This document shows, piece after piece, positions 6,180-56,046 of a stretch of DNA of 64,000 bases. Within the stretch, counting starts at the first letter, position 1, and every line of letters starts with the position of its first letter. Both the position numbers and the translations under genes were made by a program. The notes under the pieces were generated by a model. That model saw nothing but the letters and a program-made list of their open reading frames with translations. It was not told the origin of the DNA and made no database searches. This DNA is from Yponomeuta sedellus (lineage: Eukaryota > Arthropoda > Insecta > Lepidoptera > Yponomeutidae), in contig OW203721.1 in NCBI GenBank assembly GCA_934045075.1, positions 15,780,678-15,844,677 on the forward strand. Reading direction: 5' to 3'.

Positions 6180-6959
6180 TTCGGAGAGCCGCGACCGGAC
6201 TTGCCGGCGGCTCTTTTGGCCCTTATCAGATTTCTGACGTCGAGAGGGAGCTTACGGTCATGGACCGGGACTTGGTGTTCGTTGTCACGGATGGCTGTTT
6301 GGATCACATGCGTGAGGGAGTCTACGGCGCTATCTATTTTATCCGTGCTGTCAAGACAGCCGGGTGTGAGCACAAGCGGCGAATCGGGGGCTTCAGCAAC
6401 GGTGACTAGGGAGGCTTTAACACCGTCCCAGTTAGTGATAGTCTTAACAGAGAGTGTGGAGTGAGTCGGGGGACCTAGCTGGAGCGAGACCGGTCGGTGG
6501 TCGGAACCTAGGTCGTCGAGAGGCTCGATCGACCTGAGGTTGAGGCTGACGCCCTTTAAAAGGGCGAAATCTAGCACGTCGGGGGAGTGCGCTGGGTTGT
6601 CAGGGTAGTGGGTTGGAGAAAACGGACATAGGACGTCTAATTCCAACGATTCGGTTAGACCGAGAAGGGCAATGCCACCAGAGTTCGTCTGTAGGCAGGT
6701 CCAATCCGTGTGTTTCGAGTTGAAATCCCCGAACATCACGGTATGGGGGCCTAGAGCGAGGATGGATTCGAAATCACTCCGTAAGGGTAGTGTTCCGCTG
6801 GGAATATAAATTGAAGCTATTACTAAGGACGGATGTCCCGTCATACCTAGTCTGCAGACAGTGGCTTCCATGTTGGAGAGAGCCGGAGTGGGGACATGGG
6901 AGCAGTGAAGGGAACTCTTGTAATAAATGGCAGTGCCGCCGCCTTGACGGCCGTCGGCT
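6176..6959 (-). pseudogene. LINE endonuclease, truncated and frameshifted
   Basis: The minus-strand frame contains GGGTAIYYKSS near 6900-6955, then MFGDFNSKH and GSDHRPVSL, hallmarks of apurinic-type endonucleases of non-LTR elements. The N-terminus is removed by the 5' truncation at 6959. At the other end the frame overlaps the reverse transcriptase by four bases and is out of phase, where jockey elements have a single ORF2. Confidence 0.8.
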
Positions 6960-18251: not shown

Positions 18252-21200
18252 ATGTTTATTGTTGGACTTACCGGCGGTTTGGCAACTGGAAAAAGTACAG
18301 TTCTATCGATATTCAGAGAAAATGGAATCGCTGTTATTGATGCCGATGAAATTGCTAGAAAAGGTAAGAAAACTATTGGGTTTAGGGTATTTAGTGTTAG
18401 TTACACGGGTATTTTTCACCCTTACATGTTTAAAGCGTCACGTCGTGTTTTACATTACAACGCAAGACCGATTGTTTTATGTAAAGTTTTATAAAAAAAC
18501 CCATTCTAGAACATAATTATCATATTTTTTCTCTGTGATATTCTTCCAGCAACGAAAGGTTTGTGCGCGTAGAACTGTTTCGTGTTACATTTTTAATTGG
18601 CGACACACCTGCACTTACATACCTAAATGTTACAGTTCTCGAACCTGGCACATCGGGCTGGCTGGAACTTCGTCAACATTTCGGTGATGCTGTCTTTCAT
18701 CCGGACGGGAAGGTAAACAGGGTGACCCTGGGCGAAATAGTGTTTGACAACCTAGAGAAGAGAAAGCGGTTGAATGCCATCACCCACCCGCGGATACAGA
18801 GTGCTATGATGCGCATGGCCATTTCCTACTTCTTTGCTGGACACAGCTACATTGTGATGGAGGTGCCGCTGTTATTTGAGACCGGGAAAATGTTAAATTT
18901 CATGCACAAAATCATTACAGTTGTTTGGTAAGTTGTTCTCACTGAATTAGCTTGAAGTTGTTGGATGTCAAAAGAATTTAGGACTCACTATCACCTCAGA
19001 CAGACCTATAATGGGACACTTACCTATTATAGTGTTGAAATTACAAATTTTATTTCATATTTTCGTACAAAGATAAAGAAATTTTACGAAACCTATGTTT
19101 AACTACTGAATGATAAATGAATAAAAATAGCCTACGTCTTACATACCTACTGATTTATTGAATTGAATTGAATTGATTTTAATAAAAAAAATAAACACTA
19201 AAACTTCCTAAAAATATTTTTTAGTAGGTAGCCATGTTTTGCCAATGTCTGCAGACAATTATTACGATTAAGGGAAAGTAATAATATCACAGCAAAATAT
19301 AATAGGTATTTGCAATTCATTTACAAGGTTACATCTTGTATTTACATTAAACCCTGCAGCAGCAATATAATGCTGATTATATTTTCATCATATTTGATTA
19401 GGCTGGAATGGAAAAAAAAAATATTAGGTTAGGCACAGATGTTGAAAGCTTTGGTGGGAGTGCTACTAATAACTTTAGGAATCACTCGTCTAATATAATC
19501 CCTTTCATTTTCTAGTGAAGATAACCAACAGTTGGAAAGGTTGTGCAAGCGCAATGATTTTTCTCAAGAGATAGCAAAGAAAAGGATAAAATGTCAAATG
19601 CCACTCGATGAGAAAGTAGCCAACTCACACTTTGTCATTGACAACTCAAGGGATATAGAGAATACAAAGAGGCAAACTGAGAGCATCATTCGTGTTTTAT
19701 GCCGTTCCAGGTTTACATGGTAAGTTAAGTTATCTTCCAACAACAACAACTGTGCATTCTCCAAAAAAATAAAGTGTTTTATTTTACAATTTTTTTTAAA
19801 CTAATTCGTCATTTTGAGAGAATATTTCGATTTGTAAAGCACAAAATAAGATCCAAAGACTATGAAACTAGCAATATTGGCAAGGCGAGCAAGGTGTTAG
19901 TTTCTAATGATGCTATAACTCGTTGCTCTTAAAATTTAAACAAAATCTAAAGACTCCTTATTTATGCAAATGTACTGTTATAATACAATTTTTTTTCTCT
20001 TCAAAATATTGAGAATTCACACACTTATTCACAAAAATACAAGAAATCTGTGAATATGATTAATTTATAATTGTAGCATTAAATTTATTGTCCTTCTACC
20101 TTTAAAAGTATAAAGGTATTCTTCTTAACTAATGTGAATATTTTGGACAATGCCCATTAAACCCAATTGGGAATAAATAAAATAAAAGTATTTCAAATTT
20201 TTGCTTTATGAATATTATATGTATCTATGTACATAAAAAGCAGGAAGCAGAGGAAGGAAAAGGGACGCCAAGGGAAATCTGGGAAGCTATAATAAGGAAT
20301 GATCACAACCAGGACATGGAAATAATATGTGATTCTGCACAACGACTTAGTTGCAGTGTAGCCGTCATGCATGTGGATCAATGTTGATGTATTAATCTTT
20401 ATACTAAACTTGGCATTGGCACTACATAATCAGGGCCTTAGCGTAATAATAGAATAGATAGAATATTCTTTATTGAATGTACACCAGGGATTACATAAGA
20501 GACTTATAAAATAACAGTACAGTACAAGTGGCGGCCTCATTACTGAAAGTAATTTCTTCCAGATAGCCATTAATGGAAAAGAAGAAACGGAAACTGAAAT
20601 ACGGGTAGTCGCAACTAAACAATATTAGACAACATATTATTTTATAGTTGATACATATACATAAACGATACAAAAATATGAAATTGATACGCATACATAA
20701 ACAGTATATAGATATGAAATAAATAAAAATAAACATACACAAAAAAAAACATAGCAGATGAACGAAAAATATACCTATATAATACTAGAAAGGGATTTTA
20801 CAAATACAAATAATAATTTAGATTCTGCGGAAATGAATGCCTTTTGACAGGTCCTCTACCCAAATTTTATCCTAGGAATGCTTTAGATAAACCCTAGGAA
20901 GAGTAGAAAGGTTGATATAATGGTTTTCATATGGGAATATAAGTCTCCACATACCAACGCAAAACTGTTTTGGGATCGACAATCAACAAATCCATATTTC
21001 ATCACCTGTTACTATGACCCAAACTAAATTTTTTTTTTTTAATCTTTTATTTATTTATGGAGGGCTTGGTACAGTATATTCCGACCATGTCGCCCTCATC
21101 GGAGCAGAAACAACAAGTCTTAATAACTTAATTACTACTTACTAGGTTACGACTACTCCCTACCTAAGGTATTATTGCTTCTTCTCTTAATACCACACAA

Positions 21201-24200
21201 TGCAACCTTATACAGTGATAGAGCTAAATTTGTTAGAGGAGAACTTAAAGCACTATTGCAACCACCTATTTCATAAAACATTGCATTATCGTATACACTT
21301 CTTCTCACCGCTTTGTTCCGAACACACTCCATCAACAAATGATACACGTCTTCTTCGACATTGCACTCAGAGCAATTCGGAGACTCTGTTTTTCGCATTA
21401 GGTATCCAAACTTATTTAATGGAATGTGTCCCGATCGAAGTCTAAGAGCTATTACTATTTGTGATCTTTTTAGGGTACATTTATCAAACCATGGAATGCA
21501 CAAAGGATTGTCCTGTATTGTTTTGTACCAAATGCCCTTCTCTAACGACCTCTCATCAAAATACTCTTTCCATAGCGTCGAACATTTACGCTTTACCTTT
21601 GAAATGAGATCGGTAAAGAAAGGCAGGCACATTAATTCTTCTCCCTCAGTAGCCGCTTGTTTAGCCAAAGCATCAACAGTTTCATTGCCTTCTAAGCCGA
21701 CATGAGACGGGATCCACTGCAACTTAACTGATCTATGAGTAGCTTTTATTTCTTGTATCAGATTTATGATAGTGTAGGCTACGGGGGTTCCTCGAAAAGT
21801 CGAGGTGCAACGAGCCAGATGTTGCAGGGCACTTTTAGAGTCAGTTAGTATTACAAATGCATCACAGTCTATAGACTTTGAGTACGATAATGCTTCCGAT
21901 ATGGCTAACAGCTCCAGATACATTATTGACACATTTGAGTCGACGTTAAATTTCATAAAGGTATTACTTTGAGGGTCAAAAAAAGCAACTCCTTTAGCTT
22001 CTTCATCTTTTGAACCATCTGTGTATAGTTGGTAATCGTTAGGATAATTATCTTTTAACATTTTTATGCATTTATATTTTTATTCAATTTCATTAATTTT
22101 ATGTTTGGCTCTCTCAATGCCCTCTATGTTACTATAAATTACACTTTTAAGATCTATGTAACTCACCCACGTGTCCATGGAGAATATACCTATCAAGGGG
22201 TCCGAGTGAATGGGAAATTCTTTGAGGAAGTTGTGAACTGTGGCTAAAAGTGGTTTTGTCCTTCCACTCCAGTAAGGTCTCTCAGAAGCTCTGGCCAGTT
22301 TATCTATAGTATCAATGGAAGCATCGCTAATTGATTTCGATCTTAACCAATACCTACCAGCTAAATACCAACGTCGGATGTGTAGCGGTTGGAGAGACAG
22401 CTCGCTTTCCATCACGTGTACTGGAGTGGACTTAACAAAACCACCAATAGTCCTCATAGCTTGGTTTTGAATTTTCTCTAATTTGTATAAGTTACATTTA
22501 GCACTATTGTGAAACAAAAAACTGGCATAATCTAATCGGCTTCTAATCAATGAAATATAAAGTCGCCTCAAATGCTTCGGATGTACCCCCCAATTTGAAC
22601 CGGATAAAGCTTTTAACACATTTAAAAATTTAGATGCTTTTTCGCAAATTTCATTTATATGTTTATTCCACTTCAATGAACAATCAAGCCAAAGCCCCAA
22701 GTACTTGACAATATTGACAGTCTGAATTGACCCAAACTTTTGCCGCCCCTTATTTGAATCTGGTAAGCAATGCCTTCCACCAAGTGATGCAGTCCGTTTT
22801 TTGTAGACTTTATAATTCATGGCATATACTACCCAAGTAACATTTTGTAGGGACCGAAGTTTTGAGAAATCCTCTTAGTTCTAGAATGGTAATATACTGG
22901 TTTCAGATTTTACCTCGGGTCATAATTTGTTTTTATTTAATGCAAACAGCTCTTAGAACTCTACAATAATTTGAAAAACTAAATGGACTTCCACAGGCTT
23001 CCACCACCACTACTTGGTTTTACACACTTCCTAAGCAAGGCTTTTAACACGTTGCCAGTCCAACGACTCCACATGGAGTCACAGACAGTACTGACTGGGA
23101 CGTCCATGACTCCAGTAGGAGTCACATTCGCAAGGTATAATAAAGTAAATTTATTTTGTGGGCGTGTGAGTTAGAGCAAAGATATTCCCATGGGCGTATG
23201 AGTTAGAAAATAAAGTATTTAAAGAGCAAAAAACAAGACGGCATCATAAATTAAACTGTTTTAAAATATAAGTTCTGTATTTAATGAAAAACAAATCAAT
23301 GAATAGCATTATAAGAAGTACGATAGAAAGCTTTATTACATTTTGGGCACCAAATAGACACTCTTGAAGCTTATGCGCCAGCAATTTTTGAAGTTTTACC
23401 TTCTAAAACAATTTTATTGTAGCATCCTACACATCGTTTCTTATTATCGGTTTTGCCTTCTGGTTTCTCAATCTTTTCAAAGCTGTGTTTACTTCCGAAT
23501 GATGGCTCTGCAGTAGTAAAAGTTGACTGTCGGTCCTCATTTTTATTGCAAACAATTCTTTTATAATTTCTTCATGAGTTGCTAAGACAGTAAGTCTTAA
23601 CCGGTCAGTGTTCTTACGGACTTCTTTGTAAATAATGTATGCATTTATAACAGCGATTGAAAACAAGCCTATGCCAATTTTTTTTGCCATACCATGGTTT
23701 TTCTAGATTGATTATTGTAGATTTGCTTGACTGATCTTATATGTCAGTGCCTTTTTACCCTTATTATACTTTATTATCATTTCAGGTTTTAGTTGTGGTC
23801 GTCGTCCTCCAACCATTTTCATTGATTTACCATAGCATGTTGAAAGAAGAAAAACGTTACGCTTGTCATGCCATTTTAGAAAAGTGATGTTTATGACTTG
23901 TTTATGTCTGTGGCTTGATTCTGCATAGCTGCAATATCTCTTTTTTAATTACGAGCTAACAGTTTTTGGCAAACCCTTTCGTTTTTTGTTTACCGTGCCA
24001 AGCAGATTAGTGCCGCGGCTCTTCAAAACTTCTGCCAGTGCATGTATAGAAGTTATCAGTAATAATCAGTCAGCCTTCACCTAGCAGATTTTCAGACAAT
24101 CGCGCAACAATACTTCCCGATAAATCCAAGACGAACACTTTTTGCCTTTAGCCATAGTAAATTTCGTAGCACTATCCAAAACTGATTATGGTGCATATTT

Positions 24201-39628: not shown

Positions 39629-42600
39629 ATGTTCAACGTGGAGAGTGGCCTCCGCGGCGCTCCTCTGGAGGCCGGTGCGCACCTCGGGGCTTCGCCCAAC
39701 TCCGGCAGCAGCTCAGACATGTTCCTCTACGACGACTCCTCCATGTCAGACGGCAGTCTTTACGCGAGCGATCAGGAGAATCATTCTACACCAAGAAAGA
39801 GGTACAGTGATTATTCTTTGCATATTTTTCTTTTGCTGGCGGATTGGTTCGTGATTATTACATCAAACTTTAGTTTTTTACGTCTTCTTGAAATTATATA
39901 TGAAATTAGAACTCTTCATAAATAACAACAGTTTTTTGCGTATTTGCGATGCGAAATATTAATTACAAACTAACCCGATAAGCTGTACAAAAATATTTTA
40001 AAATAAAAAGTGTTTCATAAAAACACAGCAAAAAAAATCTACTTCATCCATCCGTTCTCAAATGATGCTCATCATACAACGCAGATTTTTATTTTTAGAG
40101 ATATTTCTTTCATGTCGTGACTCTCCGAAGACATGCCCGCCTTACAGTGCATCAGGAGAAATTTTAGCCCATTTAGGTACCTAGGTACTTTATACTCCAG
40201 GGTGATTTGGAAATCGTTAGCTGTATTTTGAGAAAACAGTATTATTAATGATTTATTAGTAATGGCATAACAACAACCGAATTCGAAGTTCCCGTACTTA
40301 TATCAAATCCCTATTTTACTCATTTGTTTTGTGTACTCTGGCGGTCTTATTATTGAATGTCAATCCACTAAAACACTGTTAAGACAAAATTGTACCCGGT
40401 TTCGACGTAACTCCGTCTTAAGAGTGTTTTCGTGAAGCTGATTTTTTATATGAAAGTGCCTGTATGTAAATGTTATAGATAAGACTGCACATCAACTATT
40501 GCTTATGTGTTGATTTATCCCCCACTACAAATCTGATAAGCAAAGAGGCGTGCCGCGTAAATATAATTAAATGACCCTGAATGAACGATTTTTCTCAAAC
40601 AAACGGACGAAGCGAATTGTACAATTAGATTAACCCTCTCCTCCCTCCGGTTAACCATATTTGGTCGGATCCCAATGATTCGGTGCGGTGCGGCCGATTC
40701 TTTAAAGCGCGGTCTGACTCTGTACCGCTCGCAGGTCAGAATTTCGGCGACTGCACAAGCGGCGCTCGCGCTGCCCACAACAGCAGATCCAGCAGCGGCA
40801 AGCTGCGAACCTGCGCGAGCGCCGTCGCATGCAGTCCATCAACGACGCATTCGAGGGGCTGCGGGCGCACATCCCCACCCTGCCCTATGAGAAACGGCTG
40901 TCCAAAGTAGACACTCTGAAGCTGGCGATCGGTTACATAAGCTTTTTGGGCGAGCTGGTAAGTATTGTTGCTTTACATTTTCTGCACACGAATGTTGTGT
41001 TTTATATAATATGTTATTCCTGGTGTACAATGCAGAATATTCATTGTATTTTTGTATTCAGCTGCGCTATCAACTTCCTTCTATTGGTCGATAGGCGTAC
41101 CTACATATTAATAAACAGTATGGACACATTAAAATGTGTCTATAGTAACTTAATTATCGATACTGTTAATTAATTATTCATTTTTAGGTTTTGCCTTCTG
41201 GACACTCGCTATTGCGATAAATTTACCTATAGGTACTAATATTTTTCGGGTTATTTGGGAGCATGATAACAGCGAAAAACTGCTCTACCTAATAATAAAA
41301 ACATATTACATTCCGTTAATTCACTGCATTCTGAACGGTTTCTTATAAGGGTGCATCTACCTAAAACATTATATTAAGACATAACACAAGTATCAATAAA
41401 CACTTCATACATTTTAATGGCATTACGTGCAAGTTGACGTCATAGTTTGAGCACAATTTGTATGGGGCGTTATTTATATTGTACGTGACTATATTGACTT
41501 TTTGACACGTCATAGTATGATAAGTATTATGAAGAAAATTAACGCGTTTATTTATGTTTTAATCATAGCCTATCCTAGCCTTTTATATAATTATACTAAC
41601 CCAACAGACGTTGTCCTGCATTATATTCCAAACGATTCTGATTTGTGAATCTAAACCATCCAGGGAGCCACCCAAACGCATACAATTTTTTGTTATTGAA
41701 ATCTGTCCAGCAGTTTAGGAGGAGTTCAGTGACATAAATAAATAAATATTCATGGACATATTATACAGATCTCGTTAGCCCTACATACACGTACATTAGA
41801 ATTATATTTATAAAGATTATCATTTTGTAGTAAAAGTTCTTCATTATAATCTTAGCGCACAGACAGGGATGGCTACGAAAACGTTTAGGTTGCTACGGCG
41901 CGTAGGCTTCGTAGCTACGAGTTTTACTTCCGTCATTGTCGTAGCAAAATTATCTAACAACTTTGCACAAATTCTGTTTCCTTCAATGAACTGAGCATAT
42001 TCCTAGGTTTATTGGTTATTGATTGTAAACTTAGCACGCATTACGAATAAAATCACCGCGATATTTTTCTGACGGATTTTAAATCGTGTACTGAATTACT
42101 TGGGAACCATTTTCGCGCGACTTTCTCTTTCGCTAGTGTAGTCACTTTCACACATTTTCCATATCTCACAGATTTTTTTGGATAAAATCGCGCGGTGAAA
42201 AATTGTTATGCCTGCTAAGCCTTGGCATAGCGTGTCTTCATATTTAGAGAGTCTTTTGTTAGAATTCATAGTCAGTTCCAGATTCTCTTTTTGCCTGGTC
42301 TATTATTTTAACTGTTTAAAGTGTGTCAAGAGTGCTTCAATTTGGATATTATTTTGTTTAGGTGAGGGCTGATCGCAGTCACGACGACGGCACACTAAAT
42401 GGCCTCGGCAAATGCAATAGCAAGGAGGAACACAAGAAAGTTATTATCAGAGGTAAAGCTTTATTTATTTCTTGTAATCCATTTTTAGTTGTGTCATAGT
42501 CCCGGCAGGGGGATGAATATAGGCTACATAAGAAAAAAAAATTAAGTTATTGTGTTTTTGTTCTGAAACTTATACAAACATAACCTCACGCCTGTATCCG

Positions 42601-45600
42601 AGAGCGGTAGGTAGAGACAAGGGACTGCCACTTGCCACGATCCTGACAGATCACCTTCGCTTCATCAACGTTCATAAGTCGTTGCATGCACGCACGCCGG
42701 TTCCGGGTACTTTTTATCTTCCCCTTTGCTAATACATCCCCTATTTGGTCGATGTATGTCCGCCTGGGACGTCCCTTAACAGCCCTTCCACTCACATTCG
42801 CAGTAGGAATATATTTGTTTTGTCAATCTTTCTTCCTTCATCCTCTTCACATGTCCAAACCAACGCAACATTCCTTTCTCAAGTCTTGTCACTACATCCT
42901 CTTTCAGTCCACAACGTTCTCTAATCAGACTTCTCACGGACCTCATTTCTACTGCATTAATTCGACTTTCTTGCTTCTTTTGCCACACTCAAGTCTCGAT
43001 ACCATACGTAAGTGTTGGGAACAGCACATTATGAATAGCCAATCTAACTCTTGTGGAGATGTTTCGGCTGCACACAATGGAGTGCAAGCAAAAACGTTAA
43101 AAGAACCTTGAGTGCAAGGCTTACACAATTTTCCGCTTTTACTCGTCTTTCTATATCACCTTCACACTTTCCATCCCTCGTAAACAGGCTACCCAAACAA
43201 ATTTTTACACTTGTTCCACCCTTTCGCCTCTAATCGTTATCATGCATGCAGTCATTTCATCATCTTTTTCAAAGACCAGTACTTTCGTCTTACTCACATT
43301 CATGTTATTTTCTTTTTAAATGCCTGAAACTGTTATAGCTACTAAATAACATTTTTATATACCAACACATTGGTTCTTCGGTAAGTAGAAGGTTAAGGCT
43401 TCTTTTACACCTAGAAGACCTCTCACTCGATTATATTTATTGCAAATTTTCAAGGCTACACCGCTACGAAGTTACACCATGTTTCTGTCTCAAAGGCGAA
43501 GTTCCGAAAATGTCTAGAACGTCGGTATTATTTGTATTGCCGCCGCTTACAATATTCATACAGGTATACCTTTAGTTCTACAATAATTTTAGGTATTACT
43601 CGATATTGCCTAGGGTCTAATAAGGCGCCACAAATCCTTTCGGAATCATGACGTTAGCGATAGCAATGTAATTTCACAGTTAGACAATTGGAATCCTTCA
43701 CAATTTGGGGTGCGTGTTATAGCGGCTTATTTCGGTAAATATGTTTACCAAGTATTAAGCAAAAAAAAGTTATCTGTCCACAGAACACAAAAAAAGAGTT
43801 ATCTAACTACCATTAAAATGACGATGACGATTACGATGTGCTAGTGCGAGGGATCAATCCTATTCATCAGCCCATATTTCTCTAATTCCGGAAATCCCAA
43901 GGCACCTATTTCTCTCCTCGTTCATACTCCAGCCACCAGAAATATGCCCCAGGAGCGGGCGCGAGGAATGCCAAAAGGAAGACTAATTTGCAACTTCCTC
44001 GTCGGTCCAGCGGTATCACCTTTTATTACCTGAGTTCGTGAATTTGATTGTCACCGGGGATCGCCGCGCAAATGGTCTCAATCTAGGCGGAAGTATTTAT
44101 AACTTTGTGATATCCTCGCCTGGTAACAGCGTATCCTAGATTGCGACTAATTTTATTTATTCGACAAGATCATGAAACGGTTGAAACGTTACAAAAAAAC
44201 AGATCATTGTAAAATACAACACAGCTCATCTGAACAGCTATTTTTCAATATCTATAAGTGAGAGACTTAAAATGTGCAATAACTTCGGGGGGGGGGGGGG
44301 TCTCTAAAATGTATGTCAATTAGTAATTTAATAGTGTCGTATTGGTTCGGTATTAATTAAGTTTTTCATTCACATAATTCGTAGTGTAATAATCAATCGC
44401 ATCCCAATCGCCTCTCGCGATTAGATCTTCTTCGCGAGGGGTGCCTTTTTAAGTCCGCGCAACTTAAATAAGCACCCCTCGCGAAGAAGATCAATAAAAA
44501 TGAAGATGAATTTTACGAACGATATCACGCCTGTAGTACTGAATTGGCAGGTGAAGACTCGGCACTTGCCTCTTGTAAAAGAAAAAAACTATTAAAAGAT
44601 AAGACTAAGTAAACGTAGACGTATAGTAAGCGTAGGTAAGAACAGATTTTACACCTGCCATGATAACGCAATGCAATTTATCCTATGCAATTAAACTTCA
44701 ACTCCAAGCAACAAACCTGAAGAAGAAGAATAAAACTTCTATTTCAGTTCAGACTTCCAAAAATCTGATTTTTTTTAGAATTTCTATTCAATGTGTTAGG
44801 CCAATGAAGAATCTATTTTGTCTTTTTATGCTTAAGGCTTTTCTTACGTCAAGCATTCTGTCGCTCGCACATTTTAACATTTTTAGTATTTTGAGTTATG
44901 TAGAGTTCGTAACTTAGAAAAGAAAGTCTTTGGTACATTGACATTCGAACCCACGACACCCCGAATGTGAGGCCGCCGTTTTACCGCTCCGTTGGCACCG
45001 CTCTTTATTTTTTAATTTACGTACATTCGTTAAGTTGTGGTAGCAATACCAATCGCTTACCGTGAACGAAAACATCGTGAGGAAACCTGTGTTTCCATAG
45101 TGCCCACATGAGCTGGAAAGCGCTTGAATATCCCAATCCGCGGTGGGCACGCGTAATTATTAAACCCATACTTTCGCTTGTGAGTCGTATTTAGGATACA
45201 GCAAAAAAAAGTTCTGTGACACGACCTGTAAATAATTCGAAAACTAAGATAAATATACATGCACCCATTGCACTCTAACTCGTTCAATGGACCTTAACCC
45301 ATATGGCTAGGGTCACGTCACAGGCCTCTATTCTCTAAACACGCATTGCGAAACCCCTGCGTTTTGTGACACCGTTCGTAATGTAGACAAACATGATTCA
45401 ACCGAGAATAGCCACCCCAAAACGACCACGGACCTTACACATTGAAACATGTAGAAGGTCAGATCATCTGATCGCTAATGAGTACAGACTTCGGTCTTAT
45501 CACTAAAAGTTATCTCTTCCGGACAATCTTTGGATGGACTGGACTAATTTATTGGAGAAGGAAGTAGATGTACAAACAAACAAGATTATTACAAAGGTAT

Positions 45601-48600
45601 AAATGAATACGTACCTATAAACAGTGTACATACCAACAGATACATACAAATAATTTATAAATTAATTGTATATAAATATAAATACACATAAGAAAAAATA
45701 TATATTATTATATAAATACATTAACATTTGATCTTTGTTTTCTATAAGTGAAGCTTGGTACTCGTAAGATAGCGTTACTTTCATCGCTGCTGGATTACGA
45801 GTAGCGTCCTCATATTGACCGAGATACTTATGGAAACAGTGAACTAATTTATTTATTGAACCTGCACTAATTAACTCGTTTCAATTTCTATTATAATTCT
45901 TTGTAGATTTATGAAAGTATCAAGATAAATCCGTTTTCTTATATTTGAATTTATATTTGAGTTTACAAAGTGTAATTACGAAAAACAATTATTCTATAAG
46001 ATACAGGCCTAGGCTAGCTTAAGGACCTCCGGAAACAATGTACGTAACTAAACTCCTAATTAAAAAAAACGCAGTCTGTAGTGACCAGTCTTACCATGTG
46101 AGCGAGGGTTGATTCTTCCTCCATCCAAGTGATCCGAACTCCGCCTGTGACAAACCTGGTTTCTTTTGGAGCTTAGCCAGTCATTCAAGAGGCCTGAGCT
46201 TAGACGAAACTACGTAAGGGATGTCCGAGGCGAACATACATCAAGCAATTAGTTTAAAAAAAACGAATCCTTGGAAAAAATGTAACCGAAAGAGGCATAG
46301 GTGCATGAAGAGACTAATATAGTGATTATGAATAGGTTCGTCACGATAGTGGCAAACCTTGTTTTCTAGCTACCCTTCCGGGATACAAGCATGAGTTTAA
46401 CTATGTATATTGTATGTACGAAGCTAAGCTATTTCAATTAATGATAAGGGGTCGTTTCCTCTGTCCCTAATTCGTCCTGGAGCCCGTGCACCTTGTGATA
46501 TGTGTGATCGATATTATGCAATACGGTTTGAACCACAAATGTACGGTAATTAGTAGGACATGTGGAGTGAATGAACTTTTTTAATTGTGCCGTTTTGTTT
46601 TGATGGGGTTACCGTTGACAAGGGTGGGCTCTTTGAGTGGCGGATCCGTCTATGTCATAGGTTTTTTCGTGCATTAATTAGAATGAATGATAAATAAATG
46701 ACTACCATCTTAGAGTATAAAATACTACCGTTGCCGAAAAACTGACCACCGTTTTTCCAGTTTTTCCTCTAGTCGCCATCATAGGGTTCTCGAGGCGCAG
46801 CTTAGGGATTGACTTGTTATACGCAAGGAATCGATTGATTGATATTATATTTGCGTTGTAACTTTCTTACCTGCAGTATTCGTAATGCTATGAATAAATA
46901 TGTGGTGTGTAAAAAGTATTACACACCACATAACAAAAAGTATTAATCGAATCTAATCTAAAGATAAATTGGTATTGAAGAACTTACTCTTACCTATCCT
47001 TAAATAAAGCCGTCAATTCTGATATTGTAATTTTCTTTGTACAATTAAGAAGAAGAAGTACCTAAATTTCTATTAGTTTTATTACGACAAGATCGAGACA
47101 GCGGAGGAGCTGTCGCGTCCTGAAGAGTAGGTAACAGTATCAATGTTTTCAGCAACACGGTTACTCAGCTCCCCGTTTCCCATGTAATCTGTAATGATGA
47201 TTACGTAATAGCATGCGAAAGCGCATCCCATCACAGCCAGGTGCAGGTTGCACGCAACGAACTACGTCCTTTAGCGAAATGGCCGGTTCTCACGACGAAC
47301 TGTAGCACGCATCCCGAGGGATAACCGCCCTCGCCCGTGTATTGATGCGCTGTTGATAATTTAATTTACAATTCATTAGTTGTTGTTAATGACACCTGAG
47401 TAAGTTTTTCTCACGGGGGATGTTTTCTGTACAGTAAGGCATCATCCAGCGGTACCCCCAGACTGCAAATGGAATAAAACGGATTATTTTCTCTATATTC
47501 ACAATTCTCGCTGCCTACTACGCTTCTATATGGCAAGTTGTGTATTGTTTTAAGGTAGTGGTGATGACAGAGCACTTAGCTATATTTTTTGCATACATAC
47601 ATGATTTAAAATGGCATCTTTAGATAATACATAAACAGGGAAACATTTTAGATACTTCAATTTCTTCCATCAATCAAGAAATTGAACGGCGGCATGGAAA
47701 CAGTATTTAGTTTCTCAATGTCTCAAAAATATAAATAATAAAAAAAGAGCTAAGTACATGAAAGGGCACGCGTAAAAACCAAGGGGAGCACTCAATAGAT
47801 ATATTTGCGAATCGTGCCATAGCAAATTGTCGCGCCCTTTGTAAACACGAGGGCGGAGTGCATTAGATCACCATTAACACTTGAACGACGAGAGTACAAT
47901 GGCCCATGTTTCATACGATTATTTAGGTATTGAGACTAAACGAAATTTGTAGCAATTTCATGATAGGGAAGGACTCGATAGTCACCATGGAGTACTTCGC
48001 CTAATGTATATTTAATGCGCGTAAAGATTACTTTTATTTATACAGACAGTTTTTATACAATTTGGTGGTAAAAAACTTTGTATAGTTGACAGCAAGTCAA
48101 TCTATAGATTTGTTTGCAAAGTCGCCCGTAACAGTACGTATAATGCACGCATGTGAAGGTCGATGTGCTGTGGACTGGACTACTTACTAAAAACCGGCCA
48201 TGTGCGTGTCACGCCACGCGCAAATTAGGATTCCGTAGGAGGATGTTTTAACTTGTACTAAGCTATATGATGAAAGATGAGCTAGATGTATGAAAGGTAG
48301 TGCTCTGATATAATATTGTAACGCTTTGGTGTAATTTTACTGTTATGTTACAATATTCATGTAAATAAATGAATGAATTAATGAATGAATTAATTAATTA
48401 ATTAATGAATTAATTAATGAATTAATGAATGAATGAATGAATAAATATACATCATCAATGTAATATTAAATGGAATTTATACGAAGCTTTCCTTTTATAA
48501 TTATTTTCGTCGCCTACTCTTTAATTTGTAAAGGCTACTCAGCTCTGAAAAGTTTATTATACGTGCTACAATCAAGCGTTTAGCTGAGAAAGGCGAAAAT

Positions 48601-51600
48601 TTGTGCTTTCAACTTTAATATTTAATCGAAAAATGGTAGTCTTCCTCTAAAAATATTTATAAGCGACCAATCTAATAATGCCTTACACTATGGCGTAGGC
48701 GAGAAAATAATATTTTATCACTAATTTAAGTTGAGTAGCGGTGGTACCCCAATAAATACTTTCTTAGAGGTTTTGTCTTGTTGGCGTAATTAATATGTCA
48801 ATCTTCAGTTTTCTTGTATCTTCCTCTTTACGGTAAATAGGCGGACATGGCGAAACTGTAAACGGTTCCTTGTTGAGTACGGAACCCGAAAAAACTTTTA
48901 CTTGCGCCAAACAGGGGTAAGCTCGGCCATCCATAATTTTATTTGCGTAATTGACTGGCTACTATGGTTTTTCAGCATCATGCCGCTTTAGCATGGCACT
49001 TTTGTGAATTAAATTCTTAACGAGACCCGCTGACCTAAATAGGTGATAGAAAACCGTAGTGTATTAAAATAGAGACATAATCAACACGACAACATCAGAT
49101 AAAAAGCTTCATAACGCGGGGGCCCGACAAAAACAAACACCACTCGAGAGCGCGGTCCGTAATCTTTTTTTCAATTAATAAAAAAGACCTTATCGAAATG
49201 TAATGTAGGATTTACATAGAGATTAGTTCGCACGTGCGTTGGGCCTGCTCGGCGGCTCTGTGTGTTGACTATGCGATATCTGTAGCGCGGTCGTTGCTCG
49301 TTGCAACAGCCTTGCACTGTGTTAGATAGAAACGTGCCGAAACCCCGCAATAAGCTATTGTTGATTCAAACCGTGCAAAACAACTAGGTACGTACTATAA
49401 AGCGATGGTGCAAGGCTACAATGTAAATTCAGGAAACGGTGATAAAAAATTCGTATCTGAACTGGCGCAAAAGAAATGGTCTGTGCTTTATCATATATCA
49501 TTTGATTTTTATGTGTGCAATAAAGTGTAAGTATAAGCAAGGAGTCAGAGGAGGAGGAGGAAGAGAGTTATCCAGGAGTGGGTTAGACAGTTCTGACCCA
49601 TCTGGCGCCCCGCCTATCTACTAATACAAACAAAATACAAAACGTATGAGCCACCTAGCCATCCTGAGAAATACGATTTTGTAGGCGGAAGACAACAACC
49701 CCAGTAGGCTTAGCACGCTAGTATGCGGAAAAATGACAGGCGCCGCGGCATACTCTTTGCCGCAGTATTAGTTTTGTCGCAACAGCGAAATTGATATGAG
49801 TGGAAGAGAAATTAAAACCCTGTCTAAAGTCTATCCCGCAGGCGGCAAATTGGGGATGCCAATTAAATGAAATTACTTAATGTTTATATTTTTTCGGTTC
49901 GCCACACTCGATCGGTATACTTTAGGCGTGATCGTTGCAAAGACGAACCGTTTTATAAGACCGTTTTGTGTTCCGCGACGATAGGACCGTTTTACGTTTC
50001 ATTCTAAAGCAGTGCCAGCGACTCTAAAGCAGTGCCAGCGTTTGTTCGTCGCGAGACCAGTCCTTAGATTGTTTGACGCGGATATGTCCTTTAGTGCTAT
50101 ATTAATAGAGCCTTGAACGTAATGAGATCATTGCGACGTCGTCGTCGGCTCCTTGCTCGTTCCGTTCGTTTTGGTCTGTGATACAATAAAGTAATCTTTA
50201 TGTCTATGAGTATACAGTCGAATATCGTGTAAAACAACTTATTTTTTCCGATGTTTCGTGATTTCGTCTCGTTCGCACTCGTTTGACCGTCCTCTGCGCC
50301 TTGCTCGTTCGCATACAATGAAACCAGTTGCGAACGAAGACCGTTTCGAGGACCTGTTTTTGTTCCAGAAAAAACGGTTGCGTTTCGTCGTCGAAAAATC
50401 GGACAACGACCCACTCCTAGTATACTTCGACTGTATTACAACACTATTCATTCGTTCATTTGGTTCTAATGCGTTTCGATAACAATTTTTTTTTTAAGAA
50501 CAGGCGTGTAACCTAGTGTTTTGTCTGAAGTGACAACTAGCGTAAATACAGTGCGTTCACATTAACTTGACGCGTGAGAGAATTGGTAACAAGGACATAA
50601 CATGTGAATTAGCTTTTGGACCTAATCGGAAGATGGTAAAACAAGCCCTCAATTCTTTTATTTTCCCCAAGTAATGGGAATGATTTCTTATTTAACATGG
50701 TAACAGTAAACATCTCAGTGCTACCAATTCTCTCACGCGTCAAGTTAATGTGAACGCACTGTATATATGACTGGACTACAGTGCGTTCACATTAACTTGA
50801 CGCGTGAGAGAATTGGTAACAAGGACATAACATGTGAATTAGCTTTTGAACCTAATCGGAAGATGGTAAAACAAGCCCTCAATCCTTTTATTTTCCCCAA
50901 GTAATGGGAATGATTTGTTATTTAACATGGTAACAGTAAACATCTCAGTGCTACCAATTCTCTCACGCGTCAAGTTAATGTGAACGCACTATACATACCG
51001 AAACGTTTATTTTTCGTCGTGTTTTCTTTTTTCCGCAAGCAAACTGTCATGAATTTTTTTTCTGAATCTCAACTGAAAATGGAGCGAATAAACTTAGTAT
51101 ACGATATTACGATATTTAAGTTCTACTCCTTTGCTTCAAGTTTACCGCTACCTCGGCGCGCATTTCCTTATACTTTGCACCTCGTATCGCCCGGTAGTAC
51201 ATATCGGCGGAGGGATGTAATTGCGAAAGTACACGGAGGCTTTTAAAGAGAACTCAGAAGGGATACATAAAAAGTGGTAATGCTTTTTAATTTATTCCTT
51301 TTTACTGTATAACGTATCATGTACTTCCGAACAGATGACCCAACGGGCCTTGTGACCTTTACCTAAGAAAATAAATAAAGTTTTAGTACATATCCACTCT
51401 CTTTAAAAATCACCCCATATCCGTCAGATATCTTCAGCTGTAGGTCTTCTTGCAGCTCCTCGCATAGATAATTCTGCATATCTCTACTTATTTTATAATT
51501 TTGAAGGAACTCTTTATCGGGCATGTCGTGTGGGAGGGACATCTCCCGCACTTCCGTCCGCTGTTTTTTTCGAGCTTCCTTTTTAGTGTTCATTGCGTAA

Positions 51601-54600
51601 AGATATCTTACATATTATGCCCTAGCTATTTAAGCAATAAAGTTTGTTATGTACCTAAGTTAGGTTTCAGCCACAGTCGAAGCCAAAGTCGTCGTTGTAG
51701 GAGGTAAAGCAGTCCGTGAAAAGCCGAGAGAGCCCAAAAAATTTCAACACGAAAACAAAGAGAAATTATAACCTCAAAGCCTTGTCTTTACCCTCGACAG
51801 CAATAGAGAAATTTCTCTAAGTTAAGCTGTCATTTTGCGGGAAAAAAACACTTGCATGTTCGGCGTTGCGGGAAACCATAGACAAACTGTATTAAACTGA
51901 CAGAAGGGGGCACGTCGAGACCTCTCCCGCGGTCTTCATCTTCGCACCGGCGGTATACCGCTCTGTGACGTCATTTTAATACTGTTTAGACTGTTTAGTG
52001 TTTAAGGTGACAGTAGAGAGTAGGCAAAATGGTCAGCGTGATGGATATTTACATGTTTGTGATGTCGATGTTTCTCGTTCCCATGACACAGGGTATCCTA
52101 GTGTGGGGCCAGAAGCAATGTACCTATTTGCCTGTATGTAATGTTATGTTAATACGAGTAGATGCTTTTAGTGTTGTAAAGGGTTGTAAAGGCAAATTCA
52201 CGACAAAGTTAGTATAAATTTATAGGCAATATTCATGGTATGACAAACATGTCACGCGATAAGACAACAGCAAAGATTAAAAAGACAAATATGACAGTAA
52301 ACAGTGACACAAAACACAAATAAGATTTTTAAAGTCCCAGTATTTACATCAGCTTAATTAAATATAATATAATTCCAAAACGCATTCATAATGCCAATCA
52401 AAATGATGAACGCGCGTCAGATATTTGACACGACCGCTCGACCGACGGTAGAGGTGGACTTGGTGACAGAGCTGGGCTTGTTTCGCGTGGCCGTGCCCTC
52501 CACCGACGTGCCGCGAGGGCACGAGGCGCTGCAACTGCGCGACCAGCAGCTCCCGGCCTACGGCGGTCTCGGCGTTACCACTGCCGTCAAGAATATAAAC
52601 ACCATCATCGCGCCCGAGCTCATCAAGCAGAACCTCGAAGTGACGCAGCAGAAGGAGATCGATAACTTCATGATGGTGCTGGACGGCACCGACAACAAGT
52701 GCCGGCTCGGCGCCAACGCCATGTTGGCCGTCTCCTTGGTCTGCGCCAAGGCCGCCGCAGCCAAGAAGGGTATGCCGCTATACCGACACATCTCTGATCT
52801 CGGCGCCGTCAATACCATCGTCATGCCCGTACCCCACTTCACAATTTTCATGGGTGGGCTGCTGTCGTCCAACGGGCTGCCCTACCAGGAGTACATGATA
52901 ATGCCGACGGGCGCCGCCTCGTTCGCTGAAGCCATGAGGATGGGCACTGAAATTTACCTCTTTATCAAGGATGCTGTGATAACAAAGTACGGCATGGATG
53001 CGGCATACACTAGTGACACAGGTGGCTTCGCCCCGCCCTTCGAGACCCATCGAGAGGCGTGCGTCTTCATCCACGAGGGCATTAAGCAGTGCGGCTACCA
53101 GGGGCGCGTGGAGCTGTCGTTCAACTGCGCCGCTAACGACCTCTACAAGGACGGCGCCTACGATACCGACATCAAGAACCCGGCGGCCAACCCGCAGGAC
53201 TACTTGAGTGCCGAGCGACTGGGTGAGACTTACCAGGAGGCAATGAAGGAGTTCCAGTTGGTATCGGTGGAGGATCCCTTCTACATGGACGACTGGGGTT
53301 CATGGGCGTCGTACACGGCGCGGGCGCCCGCTGCCTTGCAGATAGTGGCGAACGATCTGACGCAGACGAATTTGCGCCGCGCCGGGATGGCCGTGGAGAA
53401 GAAGGCGTGTACCACGGTAGCGTTGCGGTTGAACCAGGCCGGCACTCTGACCGAAGTGATCGACGTGTTCAAACTGCTGAAGTTAAATGGCATTGCGGTG
53501 TTGCTGAATGATCGCTGGGGAGACACGGACGACCTGTTCATGGCGGACATGGCCGTGGGGCTGTCGTGCGGGCAGGTGCGTTTCGGCGCGCCCGCGCACG
53601 GCGAGCGCGTCGGCAAGTACAACCAAATCCTTCGCATCGAAGAGGAACTTGGTGCGCTTGCTAAGTACGCTGGTAAAAACTATAGAGGCGAAAAGTAATG
53701 TAATCTTGTATGTCTTGGATTTATGACGAAGTACTCACGTGAATAAATAAAATTAATTATTATTACAATATTACTTCTTTATGTTCATTAGTGTAGGGTG
53801 GATAGATAGAGTTCTGGGATGGAGAACAACGAAACTCATTTGCGTTTGCGGATACGATACATAGCTCAAAAGAATTTTCTTCATTAATTTTTGTGACCAT
53901 TATAACATTGCTTAAATTTTAATTACTTGTCGCTAAATGCAACCTAGTGCAGGTAATTACTGGGGTTTCCTACATGTCCCTGATTTGCGGTTCAATTTCT
54001 CTTATTGAAATGGACATACGCGAGCTGCGTAATTACCGGAAGCGTTTAGGTTACCGCTGTCGTAAACTGTTATTAAACATGTCGCTTTGGGGTTGGAGAC
54101 GTGTACTACCTATAGAAAAGTGTCTATACCTAATTAGATATCTACCGGGTGTTAATAAAGTGACGTCCTCCCTAAACGATTTCTTTCCAAAGGAACCACG
54201 CGTCCGAAATCCAGCTTAGGAGATATATAAAAAGCCAATAGGCTTATAATAATTATATCCACTTCAGGACTCAAGAGGAGAGTAGGGGCTTAGTAGACAT
54301 TGAGGTACAACTTGGGTTCAAAGCAGCACTTTTTTATTATTTTTGTTTTCTACCTAATTCGAATTCGTTTATAAATCGAATTCGATTTTAACGTGCATCT
54401 CAAACGAGTTAGTACGTGTCATAAGAAAGCTGAAAGTTACGCGACTAATGAGTATTAAAAAAAATCTGTAAAATTAAATATATTTTTTATTTTCTAGTTA
54501 AATTACTTCGATAAGGTAGTTTATTTTGGTTTGCATTTCAGTAGCTTGTAAATTGGCATGGGGCGATCTTTAAATTTTCAAAAAGTTCGTTACACGCAGT

Positions 54601-56046
54601 CGGTTAATAATGCAATGCAGTAATTAATAGCGTTCTGCATTAATTTATTGTTGCATTAGTAGTTATTACTATTACAAAATGATTTACCTGAACTAGAAAG
54701 TTGTTCTAGAAAGCGCACAAATGAGTGGCTCTAAAATATTCTTCTTATTTCCGACTTTTGTTCGTAGAGAAAAATGCACGCCATATAGTTACGGAGAGTT
54801 AAATGCAGACAATTCCAAAAAAAAAAACCTATTGTGCGGAACCTGTATAACGAAACTTCTTCGACTGTAGAACATTAAAAATATCATGGTGTATAGAGTC
54901 TATAAACGGGCAGGTAGCGCCAACCCCATCAGCTATCGTCCGACAACAGGGCAAAGGGGCTCTAACAGCGCACACGTGCACGCGGCACCCCTCCGCAATC
55001 GACCCCCCAGCGCAGGAATAACACCCCGCCATTGTGATCCAACTACCGCATTCGCGAAAACACCCTCCGCGCACTTTGACGAATAATTGTGGATAAATAA
55101 ACTTCAGTTTACGCTCGCTTAATACACCCCTAAAGCGATTTGGGAATAATTAAAACTGTTGCAGATTAGCTCTCACCGTTCCATTGTTAATAAGGGCAAC
55201 GATAACAAGTGGGCAACTCGGCAAAACTAGTAATTACAAAAATAATTAGCACCATGGAAACTGCAGCTTATGATTTTTCCATAAATCAGCAGAGTGACAG
55301 CAGAGAAAAAGAATATACTTTTCTTCCGACGACGGAGACGGTTTATATTCCGAACAAGGGTAGATGTGAACTCGGCAGATATTCGTGTTTCTCTGACTTT
55401 TAGATTTAGCGTTTTCATTCCGAACCCCGGACCGCTTAGATCAGCTACCTGTATCCCAGAGGAGACTGGCTGCTCTCCGTTTCAAAATACTTAAAAAAAT
55501 AGTGAAAGAGAAGTCACGTAATTCGTTTCGTTTTTCCGTATTGATCTGCATGCACTCGCGTTTGTTTTACTTTCGCAGTGATTTTTTTTACTTAGCCTCT
55601 TTTGTACCCACTGCTAGGCATAGGCTCCCTACTTTTTTTCCATCTCTCCCTGTTTCCAGCCACCTCGCACCATTCTGGCAAAAATGCATTTAGGTCGTCC
55701 CGCCATCTTCGCCTTCGTCTGCCGCGACGTCGCGTCGGTTGATAATTATTCAAGTTTTATTCACCTGCTGCCAATTACAAATCACTGGCTGGCAGCAAAA
55801 TATTTTCGCAATTTCATTCTGCGCTTCTGTGAACTACACGACCTTTGCGCTTAGCTGAGCAGTACACCAGAGTTAATTTTGAACATGTACTTGTCCACAG
55901 GCAGTAATTTTCAGGCGCACTCGCTGTCGTGGTCCCGTCGCGGCGAGCGTCCCGCCGGCTCCACCCTCCATGCCAAGATCTGGATCCCCGAAGACCCTCG
56001 TAACTTCAACGTCCACTCCCTCCATGATAAAGAGGAGATGAGGTAG
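39629..56046 (+). CDS. Fer1: Fer1/Ptf1a-like bHLH transcription factor, four exons
   Basis: Exons 39629-39801, 40735-40957, 42362-42452 and 55901-56046 join in phase through GT-AG introns to 210 codons. Exon 1 encodes an acidic, serine-rich N-terminus. Exon 2 holds the whole bHLH: basic region [21 protein letters not shown], loop [17 protein letters not shown], helix 2 [15 protein letters not shown], almost identical to vertebrate PTF1A. Exon 3 ends in KKVIIRG, matching PTF1A QKVIICHRG. Exon 4 encodes [10 protein letters not shown] and [11 protein letters not shown], matching the conserved GHSLSW and AKVWTPEDPR blocks that contact RBPJ/Su(H). It should bind E-boxes with an E-protein and act in neural and gland fate. 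The last intron (13.4 kb) hosts the enolase-like gene. Confidence 0.9.
40735..40957 (+). CDS. Fer1: Fer1 bHLH exon
   Basis: Acceptor CTCGCAG precedes 40735 and donor GTAAGT follows 40957. The split AG|G codon joins exon 1 as arginine. It contains the complete DNA-binding and dimerisation region. Confidence 0.92.
41585..41830. repeat. Helitron-like repeat with nested SINE tail
   Basis: CAACAGACGTTGTCCTGCAT ... CCAGCAGTTTAGGAGGAGTTC (41602-41728) is a common lepidopteran repeat that resumes after 41787 (CATACACGTACATTAGAATT). Between lies a 5'-truncated minus-strand fragment of SINE family A (41736-41786), apparently flanked by an ACATA duplication. Confidence 0.6.
42560..43315 (-). pseudogene. 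RTE-type LINE, C-terminal part of ORF2
   Basis: The minus strand reads [14 protein letters not shown] ... [11 protein letters not shown] (from about 43310), then after several stops [46 protein letters not shown], and in another frame [19 protein letters not shown] ... [11 protein letters not shown]. This is the thumb-to-C-terminus of an RTE-group reverse transcriptase. Frameshifts make it non-functional. It sits in Fer1 intron 3, just after exon 3. Confidence 0.8.
44287..44300 (+). repeat. 14-base poly(G) tract
   Basis: Uninterrupted G run in AT-rich surroundings. Confidence 0.9.
44424..44492. repeat. Perfect hairpin, 21-bp arms
   Basis: Arms 44424-44444 and 44472-44492 (GATCTTCTTCGCGAGGGGTGC type, just over 20 bases) are exact reverse complements with a 27-base loop. 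Confidence 0.9.
44925..45150. mobile_element. Rearranged tRNA-derived SINE
   Basis: The tRNA-like head (GACATTCGAACCCACGAC ... GGCACCGCTC, 44938-45003) lies in plus-strand antisense. The body motif CATCGTGAGGAAACC (45073-45088) lies in the reverse orientation relative to the head when compared with the copies at 31530-31908 and 60610-60890. One half has therefore been inverted. Confidence 0.5.
45475..45720 (-). repeat. LINE 3' UTR-like fragment
   Basis: CGGTCTTATCACTAAAAGTT and ATCTCTTCCGGACAATC resemble the 3' UTR fragment at 20463-20640; AT-rich low-complexity sequence follows. Confidence 0.35.
46899..46932. repeat. Perfect hairpin, 14-bp arms
   Basis: TATGTGGTGTGTAA (46899-46912) and its exact complement (46919-46932), 6-base loop. 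Confidence 0.85.
48140..48900. repeat. Ubiquitous lepidopteran 'CCAAGTGCG...GGTTCCGTA' repeat
   Basis: Begins GATGTGCTGTGGACTGGAC ... CGGCCATGTGCGTGTCACGCC ... GGATTCCGTAGGA and ends GGTTCCTTGTTGAGTACGGAACCC near 48895. Related pieces occur at 56473-56563 and 57590-58065. It is interrupted by the microsatellite at 48364. Confidence 0.5.
48364..48445. repeat. (TGAA/TTAA)n microsatellite
   Basis: About 80 bp of mixed TGAA and TTAA tetranucleotides. Confidence 0.9.
50004..50040. repeat. Short tandem duplication
   Basis: TCTAAAGCAGTGCCAGCG occurs twice in tandem. Confidence 0.85.
50549..50761. mobile_element. 213-bp TIR MITE, first of a pair
   Basis: Starts CAGTGCGTTCACATTAAC and ends with its complement; inverted ends of about 40 bp include CTTGACGCGTGAGAGAATTG. 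TA flanks both ends (50547-50548 and 50762-50763), as for Tc1/mariner-type MITEs. Confidence 0.88.
50779..50991. mobile_element. 213-bp TIR MITE, second of a pair
   Basis: Same element, same orientation, 17 bp downstream of the first, differing at only a few positions. The last base is A instead of G. TA flanks at 50777-50778 and 50992-50993. Confidence 0.88.
51412..51593 (-). pseudogene. Harbinger/HARBI1-like N-terminal fragment
   Basis: The minus strand reads [20 protein letters not shown] and [12 protein letters not shown], which resembles the helical N-terminus of HARBI1-type nucleases (F..NYR.SKE...YLC.EL). It could be a first exon whose remainder is lost; no partner exon is seen nearby. 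Confidence 0.4.
51966..51973. promoter_or_regulatory. Consensus CRE upstream of the enolase-like gene
   Basis: TGACGTCA, the full palindromic cAMP response element, in a GC-richer patch about 420 bp before the enolase-like ATG. A promoter role is inference. Confidence 0.35.
52391..53698 (+). CDS. Enolase-like pseudoenzyme, intronless
   Basis: 435 codons (enolases have about 434), full-length alignment from MPIK-ARQI to [17 protein letters not shown]. Enolase converts 2-phosphoglycerate to phosphoenolpyruvate in glycolysis, but this copy lacks the chemistry. By position in family numbering: the loop SGAST (37-41) is STDVP; H158 is L; E210 in GDEGG is T210; metal ligand D245 is N; metal ligand D318 is N321; both catalytic lysines are arginine (R346, R397); SHRS is NDRW (373-376). 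E167 and one metal ligand (E294) remain. The frame is intact and structural segments such as [13 protein letters not shown] and VEKKAC are kept, so a selected non-enzymatic role is likely. No introns, inside Fer1 intron 3 on the same strand: a retrocopy. Poly(A) signals follow the stop. Confidence 0.93.
   Translation: MPIKMMNARQIFDTTARPTVEVDLVTELGLFRVAVPSTDVPRGHEALQLRDQQLPAYGGLGVTTAVKNINTIIAPELIKQNLEVTQQKEIDNFMMVLDGTDNKCRLGANAMLAVSLVCAKAAAAKKGMPLYRHISDLGAVNTIVMPVPHFTIFMGGLLSSNGLPYQEYMIMPTGAASFAEAMRMGTEIYLFIKDAVITKYGMDAAYTSDTGGFAPPFETHREACVFIHEGIKQCGYQGRVELSFNCAANDLYKDGAYDTDIKNPAANPQDYLSAERLGETYQEAMKEFQLVSVEDPFYMDDWGSWASYTARAPAALQIVANDLTQTNLRRAGMAVEKKACTTVALRLNQAGTLTEVIDVFKLLKLNGIAVLLNDRWGDTDDLFMADMAVGLSCGQVRFGAPAHGERVGKYNQILRIEEELGALAKYAGKNYRGEK
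53742..53751 (+). terminator. Poly(A) signals of the enolase-like gene
   Basis: Overlapping AATAAATAAA 43 bases after the stop codon. Confidence 0.75.
53752..55600. other. Fer1 intron 3, downstream of the enolase-like gene
   Basis: No gene is supported. A 90-codon open frame (53947-54219) has no recognisable domain. Confidence 0.35.
55600..55745 (-). pseudogene. RTE-type LINE C-terminal fragment
   Basis: The minus strand reads [20 protein letters not shown], then ERWKK and the CCCACTGCTAGGCATAGG-type 3' sequence typical of lepidopteran RTE elements. It ends only 155 bp before Fer1 exon 4. Confidence 0.65.
55901..56046 (+). CDS. Fer1: Fer1 terminal exon
   Basis: Acceptor TTGTCCACAG. The frame completes the G left by exon 3 as GGC and reads [11 protein letters not shown] ... 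[22 protein letters not shown], stop TAG at 56044-56046. A nearer acceptor (TTTTCAG, 55913) would be out of phase with exon 3, which decides the start. Confidence 0.85.

Follow-up and report, generated by a model that had tools for sequence, protein, structure and literature searches.

What is an enolase gene kept for when residues required for catalysis have been replaced? This question is raised by a locus in Yponomeuta sedellus, in a stretch of 64,000 nucleotides that we refer to as the window (positions 15780678-15844677 of contig C36, in an assembly of 657.5 Mb and 57 contigs). It contains an intronless enolase-like gene, here called Eno2 (Table 1), whose active site had been described from the sequence as dismantled and for which selection for a role outside glycolysis had been proposed. 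Elsewhere the window contains a 496-codon open frame that encodes a ZAD domain and C2H2 zinc fingers (2079-3569, + strand) and, within a GC-rich patch, two adjacent frames left over from a non-LTR retrotransposon, whose domains are reverse transcriptase and endonuclease (4359-6871, - strand). There are also a further reverse transcriptase piece at 10100-10474, an RNase H piece at 21153-22061, and a frame, perhaps a single exon, that matches part of dephospho-CoA kinase (CoaE; 18563-18931, + strand).

Table 1. Positions in the window of the Eno2 and ptf1a/Fer1 features, with the basis of each assignment.
Feature	Position	Strand	Basis
ptf1a/Fer1 coding exon 1	39629..39801	+	splice sites, in-phase translation, homologues
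ptf1a/Fer1 coding exon 2, bHLH domain	40735..40957	+	record matches, homologues, splicing
ptf1a/Fer1 coding exon 3	42362..42452	+	record matches, homologues, splicing
Last ptf1a/Fer1 intron, containing Eno2 on the same strand	42453..55900	+	GT...AG ends, phase
Eno2 coding sequence of 435 codons in one exon, with replaced catalytic residues	52391..53698	+	ORF, Pfam, family search, fold model
Codon 210: general acid/base Glu to Thr; family-variable position	53018..53020	+	alignment and family counts
Codon 245: metal-ligand Asp to Asn; 68/69 family members	53123..53125	+	alignment and family counts
Codon 346 (Tribolium 344): catalytic base Lys to Arg; 69/69 members	53426..53428	+	alignment and family counts
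Codon 374 (Tribolium 372): SHRS His to Asp; 69/69 members	53510..53512	+	alignment and family counts
AATAAA, candidate polyadenylation signal	53742..53747	+	read from sequence
ptf1a/Fer1 final coding exon with stop	55901..56046	+	record matches, homologues, splicing

The enolase frame and its lepidopteran relatives

The frame runs without interruption or intron over its 435 codons, as the original prediction stated, and the end-to-end alignment with enolase was likewise borne out: both Pfam domains are present (Enolase_N at residues 3-134 and Enolase_C at 143-432), and the protein aligns with Drosophila and lobster enolase. An AlphaFold2 model computed from an alignment of 51 rows (pLDDT 93.9, pTM 0.92) has Drosophila enolase 5wro as its closest PDB match (TM 0.97, rmsd 1.2). 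The model indicates that Eno2 retains the enolase fold, and in this predicted fold as in domain order Eno2 resembles canonical insect enolase (Eno1, with 5wro as its structural example). The comparison that aligned Eno2 with Drosophila and lobster enolase also gave an enolase chain in 7n6g/7sqc, which we take to be structures of the Chlamydomonas central apparatus.

A protein search with Eno2 returned, among its best 120 matches, 68 relatives that outrank the canonical enolases; they are 57-90% identical to it and nearly full-length, covering 94-100% of the query. A profile search built from 16 sequences, including that of the window, again ranked all 68 ahead of the first canonical enolase among its best 120 matches, with an E-value gap of 34 orders of magnitude. 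All of the 68 that are named by organism come from Lepidoptera, and the altered active site is common to Eno2 and the 68 relatives in the alignment. In a maximum-likelihood tree of 95 sequences without an outgroup root (the whole family of 69, with 26 of the 52 canonical enolases), the 69 family rows fall on one side of a branch with support of 100/100. Eno2 pairs with a 90% identical relative (P0001) on an early branch, with P0064 and two copies from Eumeta nearby, a branching order that is weak (a fork of 83/0, unsettled by bootstrap, with P0064 and the window pair as long branches meeting). The enolases of Arctopsyche grandis (P0119) and Plectrocnemia conspersa (P0127), presumably caddisflies (Trichoptera), rank among the canonical sequences, and it is therefore likely that Eno2 arose in Lepidoptera.

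Two Eno2 copies each were found in Amyelois (P0006/P0040), Plodia (P0046/P0047) and Eumeta (P0067/P0068), on contigs of equal listed size. In the tree P0040 groups with P0047, and P0006 with P0046; because the copies pair across species, the Amyelois/Plodia duplication is older than the split between the two.

Absence of the gene outside this species had been named as one sign of a young, decaying pseudogene. Orthologues occur in many Lepidoptera, and we reject a young decaying or processed pseudogene on the grounds of the 435 open codons and the 68 near-full-length relatives.

The family itself is known. Kikuchi et al. 2017 (PMC5237310) place BmEno2 of Bombyx mori in a Lepidoptera-only cluster and report that Asn replaces Asp at a metal ligand and that Ser, Arg and Asp replace Glu, Lys and His; enolase II of Antheraea pernyi carries the same residues. 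Eno2 of the window lies in the same clade, its N245, N321, R346 and D374 match the published changes, and it is 64-65% identical to the BmEno2 and A. pernyi records. It differs from both in having T at 210, where they have S, and R at 395, where they have K. Judged by sequence, the window frame is the orthologue of lepidopteran enolase II/BmEno2, and for it, as for those two proteins, no second, enolase-like glycolytic function has been proposed.

Replaced residues in the pocket and their fate in the family

We aligned Eno2 with 120 homologues and give positions in Tribolium numbering, with window numbers in brackets where they differ. The catalytic loop SGAST has become STDVP (S37 kept; T38, D39, V40 and P41 new), H158 is Leu, with S159 and S160 also present in the pocket, and SHRS reads NDRW (N373, D374, R375 and W376 of the window), with R373 (375) unchanged. 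The metal ligands D245 and D319 (321) are both Asn, the third, E294, is unchanged, and K395 (397) is Arg. With the codons in Table 1, these changes confirm the replacements listed in the original prediction (the loop, H158, E210T, Lys to Arg at window positions 346 and 397, SHRS and two of three metal ligands). N161, Q166, E167, D209, D295 and D320 (322) are also unchanged. Of the residues that yeast enolase requires according to Kikuchi et al., the acid Glu 211, the base Lys 345, Lys 396, the loop Ser and both His are replaced, as are two of the three Asp/Glu metal ligands; Glu 168 and Glu 295 remain. Thus, of what characterizes a catalytic enolase (EC 4.2.1.11), Eno2 has the fold and the domains but not the acid/base residues, the gating loop or the full set of three metal ligands.

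Kikuchi et al. raise the idea that such enolases may be active despite the lost residues (PMC5237310), and Eno2 might on that account still be a phosphopyruvate hydratase that uses substitute residues. Its score of 364 with the NCBIfam eno model exceeds the cut-off of 300, the fold is kept, and E167, E294 and D295 remain in place. However, this score is far below that of a canonical enolase (563 for P0073), position 210 varies freely in the family, and the acid/base residues and the gating loop have been replaced along with two metal ligands, so that we regard persisting hydratase activity as very improbable. The standard NCBIfam model nevertheless still labels Eno2-type proteins phosphopyruvate hydratase.

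The original prediction went too far in holding that almost only active-site residues had been removed: most of the altered invariant residues lie outside the pocket. Among 52 canonical enolases (P0069-P0120, a narrow sample since all are top matches of the Eno2 query), 285 sites reach an invariance of at least 98%; Eno2 is altered at 15 of the 24 that belong to the pocket and at 95 of the 261 that do not (odds ratio 2.9, P 0.016). At strictly invariant sites, with a tighter pocket of 16 sites, 11 of the 16 are altered, compared with 79 of 220 elsewhere (odds ratio 3.9, P 0.014). Both pocket lists combine residues known from the enolase literature with those named by Kikuchi et al. By these counts the pocket has changed more than the other sites, and the loss is partly specific.

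Many of the replacements are shared by nearly the whole family of 69. K344R and H372D occur in all 69 members, A39D and D245N in 68, D319N in 67, and H158L and S374W in 62 each; E167 and R373 are present in all 69 and E294 in 65. Position 40 is free to vary, and position 210 is occupied by S in 29 members, N in 28, T in 6, C in 3 and other residues in the remainder. In tests that ignore the shared ancestry of the sequences, positions changed in the majority of members are at least 95% fixed at 5 of 10 pocket sites versus 28 of 157 others (P 0.027; with 31 representatives, 5 of 10 versus 20 of 155, P 0.008), and re-fixed positions make up 5 of 24 pocket sites versus 13 of 261 others among the canonical-invariant sites (P 0.011). 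Entropy, with shared ancestry again ignored, is not unusually low on average over the 16 pocket sites (P 0.28), and for the 10 changed pocket sites P is 0.66 against all sites and 0.057 against other changed sites. We take these results as suggestive of a pocket that was partly re-fixed after rewriting, not simply lost.

One explanation for such re-fixation is a re-tooled ligand receptor or enzyme, in which the fixed D39, N245, N319, R344 and D372, the mostly fixed W374 and L158 and the kept E167, E294 and R373 would make up a new pocket, specific for another metabolite that the protein binds or converts. The postulated ligand has no known candidate, thirteen of the re-fixed sites fall outside the 24-site pocket, and the entropy values are those just given; the excess of fixed replacements within the pocket and the three kept residues are in its favor, and we consider this reading unlikely.

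Constraint on the family was gauged from Eno2 and Eno1 protein divergence, which served in place of dN/dS. Across ten species, including that of the window, Eno2 diverges 2.2-7.4 times faster than Eno1 (median 4.3, 45 pairs). Because the nine pairs that involve the window have ratios of 6.0-7.4, against 2.2-6.4 in the other 36, the window gene represents a fast Eno2 branch. The largest pairwise difference between Eno2 proteins of the ten species is 39.5% of residues. Over the same pairs, 17.5% of comparisons differ at the 16 pocket sites and 26% at other sites; the pocket value is 9.7% without positions 40 and 210, both of which were dropped after their variability had been seen.

The speed of this branch also bears on whether the window copy could be a pseudogene that was silenced recently, in a family whose other members function. 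Against silencing stand the open frame, a third-position GC content of 0.79 (0.59 in Eno1) in a window of GC 0.39, the retention of all five fixed replacements, and the 90% identical relative, which shares the long stem and has 42 differences from Eno2, none of them on the 16 pocket sites (loop position 41 differs). Although a long stem branch (0.61), a mean identity to the family of only 0.645, the high Eno2/Eno1 ratios and the extra K395R are what silencing might leave, we find it scarcely credible.

Nesting in ptf1a and the origin of Eno2

In the window, Eno2 lies within the last intron of ptf1a. The host gene spans 39629-56046, and its joined GT-AG exons are in phase and give a 210-residue protein whose closest named relatives are the pancreas transcription factor 1 subunit alpha of Colias, Ostrinia and Pieris, with which it shares the spliced C-terminus. 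We assume that this gene corresponds to fly Fer1, or '48 related 1'; two names of this type occur among the ptf1a homologues listed.

This arrangement accounts for a peculiarity of the family records. Pfam detects a bHLH domain in 18 of the 68, with ptf1a exons joined to the front, and in three (P0013, P0041 and P0052) the final ptf1a exon is attached at the enolase C-terminus. The extra parts of the fused records match the window upstream of Eno2 at 39629-39823, 40730-40960 and 42362-42466, and the three tailed records match downstream at 55900-56043. Because Eno2 is nested in a ptf1a intron on the same strand, both kinds of fused model follow from the nesting, and we reject a genuine bHLH-enolase fusion protein; real read-through transcripts may occur in other species. 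A single junction within the enolase start is common to 14 of 17 bHLH-fused records (P0049 left out). In Eno2 of the window, no AG immediately precedes that junction, and such a fusion is therefore closed to it.

The fused records and the contigs point to the same nesting in other species. Among the 11 species named in both the Eno2 and the ptf1a lists, the two genes are on equally sized contigs in nine, an agreement that speaks for linkage only, since the majority of the contigs have great length (Dendrolimus kikuchii, Mythimna loreyi, Cydia fagiglandana, Epargyreus clarus, Iphiclides podalirius, Leptidea sinapis, Papilio machaon, Danaus chrysippus and Arctia plantaginis). The contigs differ in size in Pieris brassicae and Phthorimaea operculella; the Pieris mismatch probably reflects different assemblies in the two lists, since P0041 carries the final ptf1a exon.

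A PF00113 search of the same genome found six stretches at two places, the window frame and five exons on contig C13, and no third enolase place. The exons of the gene on C13, Eno1, were joined at GT-AG sites by a script that followed a relative; the gene has seven coding exons and encodes 433 amino acids with all tested catalytic motifs present and 55% identity to Eno2. Since the genome keeps this intact Eno1, Eno2 would be free of glycolytic duty. In contrast to canonical Eno1, in which six introns interrupt the coding sequence, Eno2 has no intron and has lost acid, base, loop and two metal ligands to replacement. The coexistence of an intronless copy with an intron-bearing gene suggests retroposition; a poly(A) tract and a target-site duplication would hardly have lasted in a copy of great age.

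Possible role of Eno2

We think it probable that Eno2 is an old retrogene whose product, now glycolytically inactive, has been kept by selection as a binding or scaffold protein with the enolase fold, probably for sperm formation. A processed enolase mRNA would have inserted into the last ptf1a intron early in lepidopteran evolution, and the copy would have gained expression of its own, which in the silkworm, according to Kikuchi et al., is mainly in testis. With the seven-exon Eno1 carrying out glycolysis, Eno2 would have lost the dehydration of 2-phosphoglycerate and kept the fold, as the acid/base residues and the gating loop of its pocket were replaced together with two metal ligands; drift at positions 40 and 210 and fixation to D39, N245, N319, R344 and D372 would then have followed. 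Loss of two acidic ligands, combined with the new Arg/Asp pair (R344/D372), may have produced a charge-balanced, Mg-independent pocket. In developing sperm the product would most likely act as a stable protein of this binding or scaffold type, as a homodimer or as a heterodimer with Eno1.

A non-glycolytic role in gametes is our leading idea, and sperm are proposed because of the silkworm testis mRNA and several precedents. In the silkworm study, BmEno2 mRNA is found mainly in testis, where it is high from late in the last larval stage to the prepupa, the time of spermiogenesis; its presence in ovary and suboesophageal ganglion counts against a purely sperm role (PMC5237310). The precedents are the enolase chain in 7n6g/7sqc, the Tribolium testis enolase TC011729 (PMC8438054) and mammalian ENO4, both enolase paralogues associated with the male germ line that are separate genes of other lineages, and the S-LAPs (sperm leucyl aminopeptidases), unrelated to Eno2, in which a metabolic-enzyme fold serves as a structural sperm protein. 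Selection for a non-glycolytic role, as first proposed, thus finds support in the conserved full-length orthologues and the silkworm testis mRNA; the lens use suggested with it is rejected, as no evidence for it was met.

The passages of lepidopteran sperm papers covered, which were retrieved by terms other than enolase, make no mention of enolase. In the open-access literature, as represented by titles and the beginnings of abstracts, we found neither a functional study of the Eno2 family beyond Kikuchi et al. nor an enolase assay of any member. We put forward only tentatively that, in the ptf1a intron since early Lepidoptera, the pocket of a retroposed enolase was rebuilt into a conserved, metal-independent site for a new ligand or partner in dimorphic sperm.

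The Eno2 family and its altered catalytic residues were already known from Kikuchi et al. 2017. The nesting in ptf1a and the partial re-fixation of the pocket are added here, and neither was met in the part of the literature covered. The present analysis adds a divergent branch to an enolase family of Lepidoptera that was known but had no explanation. It offers the ptf1a nesting as a positional marker for Eno2 orthology, one that also explains the bHLH-enolase models in about a quarter of the records, and it suggests that the altered Eno2 pocket has been partly fixed and not merely lost.
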